A DNA stretch of 40,105 bases from Spirochaetota bacterium (GTDB lineage: Bacteria > Spirochaetota > Leptospiria > Turneriellales > Turneriellaceae): assembly GCA_963205035.1 (NCBI GenBank), contig CAUJII010000172.1:1-40105 (forward strand), read 5' to 3'. The notes below the pieces were generated by a model. It was not told the DNA's origin and did no database searches. It saw only the letters and a program-made list of their open reading frames with translations. Shown here piece by piece: positions 15,879-30,453 of this stretch. The position numbers and the translations under genes are program-made. Every line of letters begins with the position of its first letter. Positions within the stretch are counted from its first letter, which is position 1.

Positions 15879-16895
15879 ATGAAAGCAACCGAATTTTTGC
15901 GCAAGGAATGGCCCCTGTTTTTCTCGCTTCTGTTCTTTGCAGGTCTGATGCTCTTAGACTACGAAAAGGGGTTCATGGCGAACTGGACATCTTTAACGTC
16001 AGGGCCACAGTCGACTCTTTTTGTTTCTGCTGGTTTCTTAACAGTTATTACACTCGCGTTTCTCGAAGGCATTCTGGGGATTGATAACGCGACGGTTTTA
16101 GCAATCCAAGTGCGTCATCTAAAACCCGAAGATACGCTCAAGGCCTTGACATGGGGAGTTTGGGGAGCACACCTCTTTCGGTTCATCTTTCTCCTTGCCG
16201 CCGGTTTTATTCTCGAACAGAAATGGATTATGGCGATTGGTGCGTTTTATCTTGTGAATTTAGCGGCCGATTTTTTTCTAAATAATTTCTTTCAACTCCT
16301 TGCAGACTTAAGCGTCTTGATTGCGTTGGCGGTCGTGTTCTATATCTCTCAAGAGACAGTGGGTACCGCGACTGTGAGAGTACCGGTTTGGATTGCGTTT
16401 CTCTTAATTGGAGTTTTCGCAATTTATCGTTACCTGCGCGAGCGCCGCAGATCGCTCTTGCACAAGAACCAAACCGAAGAGGGGATAACTGTTGCGCGAT
16501 CGCATTCCAAGCGTTTTCCCCTTCTGTCTGCGATCATAGCCGTGGAGTGGACAGATATTCTTTTCTCTTTTGACTCGATTGGCGCGGGTGTCGCGATGAC
16601 ACGCGATTTTTGGGTGCTTTTCTGGGGGGCATTTTTTGGCGTCACTTGCCTCAGGCTTTTTGCGAAATCTTTTGTGAAGCTGCTCGACCGTTTTCCGCAG
16701 CTCGAAGGCGCCGCAATGCTCGCCGTTTTGGTCGTGGGCGTCAAAATGGGTTTTGAAGCTATTCAAGATACGCTCAAACTCCATTTTTTTCATATTGAGA
16801 ACTGGCAGACGAGCCTTCTCGTGCTTGCAATTTTTATCGGGGCATTTTTTGTGAAGACGAAGACCCCGCATATTACGGAAGAAAAGCCGGAATAG
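15879..16895 (+). CDS. TerC/DUF475-family integral membrane protein
   Basis: LAFLEGILGIDNATVLAIQVRHLKPEDTLKALTWGVWGAHLFRF, second acidic helix VEWTDILFSFDSIGAGVAMT. ATG 15879 after TAGGAAG. Confidence 0.85.
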   Translation: MKATEFLRKEWPLFFSLLFFAGLMLLDYEKGFMANWTSLTSGPQSTLFVSAGFLTVITLAFLEGILGIDNATVLAIQVRHLKPEDTLKALTWGVWGAHLFRFIFLLAAGFILEQKWIMAIGAFYLVNLAADFFLNNFFQLLADLSVLIALAVVFYISQETVGTATVRVPVWIAFLLIGVFAIYRYLRERRRSLLHKNQTEEGITVARSHSKRFPLLSAIIAVEWTDILFSFDSIGAGVAMTRDFWVLFWGAFFGVTCLRLFAKSFVKLLDRFPQLEGAAMLAVLVVGVKMGFEAIQDTLKLHFFHIENWQTSLLVLAIFIGAFFVKTKTPHITEEKPE

Positions 16896-17096
16896 TTACT
16901 CGGGGGGGGCGTATGCCGTGCGCGAATAGTTACTCGCGGGCGTGTGCTGGGCGTGAATAGTTACTCGGGCGGCGTATGCCAAGCGCGAATAGCTACTCGG
17001 GGGGCGCGTGTTGGGCGTGAATAGTTACTCGCGGGCGTATGCTGGGTGCGAATAGTTACTCGGGCGGCACGGTCGTGCGCGAATAGTTACTCGCGC
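16890..17096. repeat. Tandem repeat array, six units of 31-34 bp plus a partial seventh
   Basis: Core GAATAGTTACTCG begins at 16890, 16924, 16955, 16987 (one variant: GAATAGCTACTCG), 17019, 17050, 17081; intervening G/C-rich segments are related (e.g. CGTATGCTGGGTGC, CGTGTGCTGGGCGT). Confidence 0.95.
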
Positions 17097-17567
17097 CTAG
17101 TGGTGGTGACCGTGGCCGCCATGCGCATGGCCGTGTGTCAGCTCCTCGGCGGTTGCATCGCGGATTTTCTGGATCGTGATTTCAAACGTGATATGTTTTC
17201 CCGCGTAAGGATGGTTGCCGTCGACGACGATATCTTTCTCATGCACTTCGGTGACGAAGGCGGGCACGACTCCCTGTTCGCTTTCGAGTTCGAGTTGCAT
17301 ACCGACTTCCATGGTGTCGCCGTCTTCAATTTGGTCTTTGGGGATAGTCATGACCAAGTCGCGTTGCATTTCGCCAAACGCATCTTTAGGGGCCATTTCC
17401 ACTTTTCCGGAGAAGCCTTCTTTCTTGTCGAGTAAGAACCGTTCCAAGGTTGGCATGATATTCTTGAACCCGTGGAGGTAGTCGAGAGTACCGTCTTCGA
17501 GTTTTTCTTTACCCGTTTCGCTGAGAATGTAGTCTATGGTGACTATTTTGTTTTTTGTGACTTGCAT
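17097..17567 (-). CDS. slyD: SlyD-like FKBP-type peptidyl-prolyl isomerase with His-rich tail
   Basis: VTIDYILSETGKEKLEDGTLDYLHGFKNIMPTLERFLLDKKEGFSGKVEMAPKDAFGEMQ; C-terminus HGHAHGGHGHHH. Confidence 0.9.
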   Translation of the reverse strand: MQVTKNKIVTIDYILSETGKEKLEDGTLDYLHGFKNIMPTLERFLLDKKEGFSGKVEMAPKDAFGEMQRDLVMTIPKDQIEDGDTMEVGMQLELESEQGVVPAFVTEVHEKDIVVDGNHPYAGKHITFEITIQKIRDATAEELTHGHAHGGHGHHH

Positions 17568-29541: not shown

Positions 29542-30453
29542 ATGCGCCTTGCACTATTGAAACCTCTTCGAGCAGTTTGGATATTCCTTTTTGTCATGCC
29601 TTTGAGCATGTCGTGGGGGGCATCTATCGACCAGGGTTTTGTCGAAAAGATACTCCGCGAAAATCGCTATTTTATAGAGTTCGTCAACGTAAGCGTGTCG
29701 AATTTTGGCTCGCCCGAAAACGAGAAAACTCTCAAGGATGCAAACCAACACAATTTCAACGCAAACCTCTATTACTTAGAGAGTAACTATGTCGACGCGT
29801 TTAAAGAAATTCGTTTAAGCCAAGAAATTTTGCTCGATCTCTATTACGATATCGTACAGAAGCGTTATATCGAAGACGCACGCACTCTGCTTGACTTGAA
29901 TGCTCCCATCATTATTCAATCGAAAGACCGCAAGTCGGCGCACTTCTTGCAGTTAGGTTACCGCGACGTTGAAGTGGCGCGTCAGTTTCGAGATATGGGG
30001 TATAACTATAACCGTTTTCTTTTCTCGAATAAAATCCGTTATTACATGGATGCGATTAAGCGCGCCAGGCGTGCAAAGCGTTTCGCATTTTTGTCTTTGA
30101 TTGAAAGCAAAACGCCCATAGAAGATAAGGTGGATTACCAAACACAAACTTGGGACGATGCCAGAAACAAAGATGACCGCGAAGTGATTCGAGATTACGA
30201 GCGCGTAAAAAACAACCTCGTCAATCAGATGAACCGCAAACTTTATGAGAACCGCATGAATTTTTTCTTGCACCACGACGATAACTACGGCCTCATCTCG
30301 GCGCAGAAAAAATCGGTTCTAAAAGACGCTTTCAAAGAACTCGATACAAAACGACCAGAAAAAGCGGTGCGTGATCCAGAATACCCCGCGAAAGATCAAC
30401 CGGAGAAGAACGTCGGCCAACCGGCAAAGCCGCAACCGGAGCCTAAGAAATAA
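29542..30453 (+). CDS. Hypothetical periplasmic alpha-helical protein
   Basis: Signal peptide MRLALLKPLRAVWIFLFVMPLSMSWGAS, long charged helices, Pro-rich tail. Confidence 0.65.
   Translation: MRLALLKPLRAVWIFLFVMPLSMSWGASIDQGFVEKILRENRYFIEFVNVSVSNFGSPENEKTLKDANQHNFNANLYYLESNYVDAFKEIRLSQEILLDLYYDIVQKRYIEDARTLLDLNAPIIIQSKDRKSAHFLQLGYRDVEVARQFRDMGYNYNRFLFSNKIRYYMDAIKRARRAKRFAFLSLIESKTPIEDKVDYQTQTWDDARNKDDREVIRDYERVKNNLVNQMNRKLYENRMNFFLHHDDNYGLISAQKKSVLKDAFKELDTKRPEKAVRDPEYPAKDQPEKNVGQPAKPQPEPKK

Follow-up and report, generated by a model that had tools for sequence, protein, structure and literature searches.

Tandem arrays of short sites bound by ribbon-helix-helix (RHH) proteins have been described in several systems, such as the parS heptads of ParB (omega) of pSM19035, the parC site of ParR and the met boxes of MetJ. 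The RHH partition protein pSM19035 ParB needs at least four contiguous repeats for a working partition complex (PMC9499535), which by analogy may serve as a precedent for multi-site assembly. RHH folds are also found in accessory chains of the F-plasmid relaxosome, VirC2, single-chain Arc and AvtR. Two other kinds of short repeated word bear comparison. DNA uptake sequences of Neisseriaceae and Pasteurellaceae are short over-represented words with species dialects, occurring within genes and at gene ends; their bias towards gene termini has been reported (PMC2346458), and dialects are known in the Neisseriaceae (PMC3630211). REP and REPIN sequences with RAYT are high-copy short imperfect palindromes with a preference for gene ends and intergenic DNA, a linked protein gene and tandem clusters. 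The motif described here shares these properties of both kinds of word, and together with a multicopy gene it resembles REP/RAYT populations (PMC3116915).

The array considered here lies in a window of 40,105 nucleotides (contig CAUJII010000172.1) from a Spirochaetota bacterium of the Turneriellaceae. The source genome, the one MAG on which the analysis rests, has a size of 2.6 Mb and is 82% complete; its relatives place it in Turneriella or in a genus near to it. Detailed reading covered ~945 kb of the 2.6 Mb as contigs, some picked for motif matches, and gene positions are approximate because the gene calls rest on a simple, purpose-written coding score. As in the RHH systems above, an RHH-type protein (predicted here) is paired with tandem short sites. 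Unlike in those systems, the cores lie 0-44 bp apart, number hundreds chromosome-wide, including inside genes, and their binding is predicted; unlike for pSM19035 ParB and ParR, no ParA or ParM partner was identified.

The array at the terC-slyD junction

The array (16890..17093) lies between two convergent genes, one encoding a TerC-family membrane protein (15879..16895, + strand; PF03741, E 4.9e-42) and one a SlyD-type FKBP peptidyl-prolyl isomerase (17097..17567, - strand; FKBP-type PPIase, E 4e-30), matches that uphold the gene identities proposed in a preliminary description of the window. That description had also counted seven cores at 31-34 bp spacing in this gap, which is borne out by the core positions and by TRF (periods 31/63/95 over 16890-17093), with the amendment that one core is not identical to the others. 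Six are exact copies of GAATAGTTACTCG on the + strand, at 16890..16902, 16924..16936, 16955..16967, 17019..17031, 17050..17062 and 17081..17093, the second and the last of these lying within CGCGAATAGTTACTCGCG. The remaining core, fourth in order (16987..16999, +), reads GAATAGCTACTCG and carries a single substitution, T7C. Start-to-start spacings are 34, 31, 32, 32, 31 and 31 bp, and identity between units is 0.97 in the cores and 0.64 in the spacers. Shuffled windows (n=100) held at most 3 core matches, none having seven. The TerC stop codon, TAG at 16893-16895, is part of core 1, as had been claimed, so that the gene ends inside the array; the SlyD stop (CTA on the + strand) lies at 17097-17099, and core 7 ends three bases earlier, at 17093. 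The window had no match in Rfam. A lone ATAGTTACTCT near-match is found away from the array, at 29784 (-).

The same junction can be compared among relatives. In the related genome G005, terC and slyD are still convergent with overlapping stops, and the junction GAAAAAAATAGTTAATGATGG amounts to one AATAGTTA with no array. The stops overlap in TTAA in G006, where the motif is absent, and G001, G003 and G004 have other DNA between the two genes. Since the junctions of relatives are without it, the array is an expansion particular to this lineage, placed where two genes closely adjoin, and its seed may have been one site at the junction, as read from G005. The TerC tree did not settle whether the source genome and G005 are sisters. 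The earlier suggestion of a VNTR thus holds between species only, in that the array is missing from the corresponding junction of relatives, and it is not an isolated VNTR, its core being genome-wide. If this is right, what looks like a VNTR is part of a genome-wide system that none of the libraries searched annotates.

A short word in intergenic DNA, genes and arrays

The core of the array belongs to a genome-wide family of sites. The exact 13-mer GAATAGTTACTCG occurs 65 times in the source genome (reversed control, 0) and the word ATAGTTASTCG 222 times (control, 0), while GAGTAACTAT/ATAGTTACTC rank first among all 10-mers in the 945 kb (141 copies against 1.4 expected in a Markov comparison). 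A profile built from one site per cluster was informative only at the 13 positions of the core, the flanks contributing almost nothing, and single sites occur without conserved flanks. Predicted genes hold 110 of 231 sites; the density is 1.7 per kb in intergenic DNA against 0.13 per kb elsewhere, and site orientation had no clear bias with respect to GC skew. Across the phylum, ATAGTTASTCG is in clear excess only in the source genome and G005, with a weak excess in G002 and G010. A two-core pattern was found in none of the GTDB contigs or IMG/VR, scans that possibly did not include the source genome, and among open-access papers the 13-mer appeared in only one, an unrelated paper on mammalian genes. 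Other repeats are present in the same genome. An over-represented palindrome-like word, TCCATAGCTATGGA (e.g., L035:4063-4212), also forms a 38-bp tandem array; TCCATAGCTA has 30 copies in 945 kb, and a longer dispersed repeat with GAGCCTGTGCGGGAACTC has ~20 copies in 945 kb.

A search for further arrays and the orientation of their neighbouring genes, as the preliminary description had proposed, turned up at least 14 clusters in the contigs covered, each of three or more cores, with repeat periods of 13-57 bp, free spacers of 0-44 bp and spacer sequences unrelated to one another. Between units, the cores of the 14 arrays are 0.87-1.00 identical; 13 of the arrays have spacers, with identities of 0.35-0.90. 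The cores are maintained while the spacers drift. Away from RHH genes, arrays of at least three cores favour convergent gaps (7/123) over co-directional (4/538) and divergent ones (0/118; P 4e-4).

Within 663 well-scoring genes, ATAGTTASTC was counted 68 times, where shuffles of synonymous codons gave 1.2 (maximum 4); its reversed control in the same genes gave 2 against 3.2, and the genes of G004 gave 1 against 0.15. Several of these sites were seen by eye in conserved stretches, such as GRLKTGTPPRL...TINYS, HSYSLVHDDLPAMDDD and GQTNYSASK. These stretches are of normal length for MnmG, prenyl synthases and SDR enzymes, and the genic sites therefore presumably arose by substitution and not by insertion. 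Genic clusters gather at stop codons, with 14 of 94 within 25 bp where about 2 are expected. In-frame arrays of cores are also present (L042:4749-5046, L107:6921-6993 and L039:443-620), whose periods of 57, 30 and 42/39 are multiples of three; they translate as (S/T)NY(S/A) repeats, and some of the frames may be spurious.

A multicopy gene family and the dialects of the associated sites

Repeated matches of the motif within genes led to an unannotated protein family of ~150 aa (alignment A1), with 27 matches in the source genome (some of them fragments), 29 in G005, 32 in G007, 11 in G002, 8 in G006, 7 in G004, 6 in G003 and 0 in G001. It had no hit in Pfam, where VirD1 at E 0.013 was below the cut-off, no sequence match in the PDB, no member in viral contigs or plasmids, and no PHROG. 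An AlphaFold model (pLDDT 57) contains a strand-helix-helix at 59-97 (strand 59-66, helices 68-80 and 85-97), preceded by another strand and helix at 6-38. The best structural matches were F-plasmid relaxosome chains (Z up to 6.6), AvtR (5.1), single-chain Arc (4.9) and VirC2 (4.6), all of them below Z 8, a level that can reflect a common arrangement. The family differs from these proteins in that identity is 7-20% at Z 4.6-6.6 only, and no relaxase or conjugation genes were shown near its copies. We infer that it may be a tandem RHH protein, which the low-confidence model fits.

Sites are associated with the genes of this family. The copies have a common promoter-like stretch, TGAGAAAA...GGTATTTAATATATAGAGG, and nearly all carry TAACTA at +317 to +323. 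TAGTTA sites lie 100-235 bp upstream of all 11 intact copies examined in the source genome, of 4/4 in G006 and of about half in G005. Within 350 bp of RHH genes there are 21 sites against 4.9 expected, some of the 21 being in-gene sites, and 8 TTAC-type sites against 0.4 expected; most sites of the source genome are far from RHH genes. A second multicopy family of ~190 aa (MEYHQTSVSLREKSYRR...) also carries that promoter-like stretch and is represented by 11 ORFs in 945 kb (e.g., L056:15136-15708, L115:1407-1979, L090:18467-19039 and L052:19649-20000). Upstream of several of its copies lie two TAGTTATTACA-type sites in inverted orientation, ~50 bp apart, and it seems to be a remote offshoot of the RHH family.

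The word differs between species. A second form, TAGTTATTACA, has 91 copies in the source genome, 132 in G005 and 0-2 in other congeners. The sites 5' of the RHH copies of G006 read GGGG(A/G)TAACTA(T/C)CCCC, which led to the prediction that G006 alone would have GGGRTAACTAYCCC at dispersed sites; copies numbered 43 in G006 and 1 in G002, with none in the five remaining genomes (controls, 0). In G006 this word also forms tandem arrays of 39-40 bp, and its sites look partly like promoter-region copies because most dispersed ones share longer flanks. The putative recognition strand is IVKVRF in G006, whereas elsewhere it is in most cases IVTTRF or ITTTRF, a change of TT to KV. The species dialects are matched by this change in the recognition strand. 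In the source genome and G005, copies with the ITTT form of the strand tend to have TTACA half-sites (P 3e-4 in-gene, P 1e-3 upstream), these paralogs being related and not independent. The T. parva-like genomes G004 and G007 have 7 and 32 family matches without the dialect of the window; in G007, a genome of the same taxonomic family (1.4 Mb, 54% complete), that dialect is almost absent.

Competing explanations and the proposed system

The preliminary description had offered a protein-binding array as one reading, which is favoured by a genome-wide, flank-independent and strongly maintained motif together with a candidate binding-protein family. We consider it evenly poised that the array is a cluster of RHH-family recognition sites that expanded through tandem duplication where the two stop codons once overlapped. 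An uptake signal, a selfish REP-like element and an RNA terminator are weaker rivals than this RHH-site reading. The most serious is a selfish REP-like element, in which copying of the site would be due to the RHH family or to a partner, the arrays being by-products without host benefit. It would account for a multicopy gene with decayed fragments and sites at its flanks, for the intergenic enrichment (1.7 against 0.13 per kb), for arrays and for the longer shared flanks in G006. A drive-like spread is conceivable and would best explain the coding sites, which are not obviously explained by a regulator. We nevertheless hold a REP-like element itself to be unlikely: unlike in REP/RAYT there is no Y1/HUH transposase (PF01797 had no match in the 82% complete source genome and matched in 5 control genomes), single sites have a 13-bp core without conserved flanks or element boundaries, genic sites lie within conserved protein motifs by substitution and with no insertion, and the linked family is a predicted RHH protein, without known DNA-cutting chemistry. 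Nor does the word belong to REP sequences as 20-40 bp extragenic palindromes, since conservation ends at 13 bp and 110/231 sites are genic.

A DNA uptake signal, by which preferred import and biased recombination spread copies with species dialects, would fit an over-represented, flankless word of hundreds of copies in genic and intergenic DNA, its entry into genes by substitution and its enrichment at gene ends (14/94 genic clusters). ComEC is present in the source genome but equally so in motif-free congeners, and each genome has one strong PilB/GspE-type (T2SSE-family) ATPase and no second strong one as a possible PilT (MAG 82% complete). The motif is also less dense, at ~0.1 per kb, than classical uptake signals, and the tandem arrays and the tie to a multicopy putative DNA-binding gene, both differences from uptake sequences, are left unexplained; we therefore rate an uptake signal as rather improbable. 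An RNA-hairpin terminator or insulator acting in both directions between convergent genes, also raised earlier, draws on the preference of arrays for convergent gaps and on the two CGCGA/TCGCG stems of the window array. Two units do contain the CGCGAATAGTTACTCGCG stems, but the fold of the array RNA is not more stable than that of shuffles (z -0.87), 16890-17093 contains no T-run or terminator-like site on either strand, the stem is not conserved at single sites, many sites are genic, and convergent gaps are also those least harmed by tandem growth. These results speak against a terminator, to which we give little credence; insulation through bound protein at the window array is possible. Neutral slippage into a local satellite, the common core being accidental, is very hard to credit: tandem growth occurs and spacers differ freely, but 14 arrays whose spacers are unrelated have the same core, which is kept as the spacers decay, and the genome-wide excess with zero controls refutes it as a full account.

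The RHH-site reading would run as follows. One site where terC and slyD meet tail to tail would have been duplicated in tandem into seven copies. The recognition site would comprise a TAGTTA centre with species-specific flanks, and its likely binder is the lineage-expanded multicopy ~150-aa family, whose chains, with two predicted RHH units each, would contact the imperfect palindrome CGAATAGTTACTCG as pseudo-dimers. These proteins probably control their own genes via in-gene sites and sites 70-230 bp upstream. Tandem copies may hold several molecules side by side, as with pSM19035 ParB on repeat arrays, and the local effect, if the array has one, would likely be that of a nucleoprotein barrier or a protein sink in a promoter-free place, tandem growth having occurred where promoters stay undisturbed. 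Binding, cooperativity and any effect on transcription are what we infer. On this reading, the IVTTRF and ITTTRF types of protein in the source genome and the KV type in G006 would each bind their own dialect.

We tentatively propose a previously undescribed Turneriella system, an account that is possible though still the less probable outcome, in which a self-regulating multicopy tandem-RHH family co-evolves with a species-specific word of 13-16 bp in intergenic DNA, genes and arrays, forming a nucleoprotein or sequence-drive system that spans the chromosome, with a few residues of one strand determining its dialect. If this is right, these genomes provide a natural species series in which a DNA-binding family and its recognition word changed together, at tens to hundreds of sites each, and both RHH specificity and the spread of a short word through coding sequence would become directly testable.
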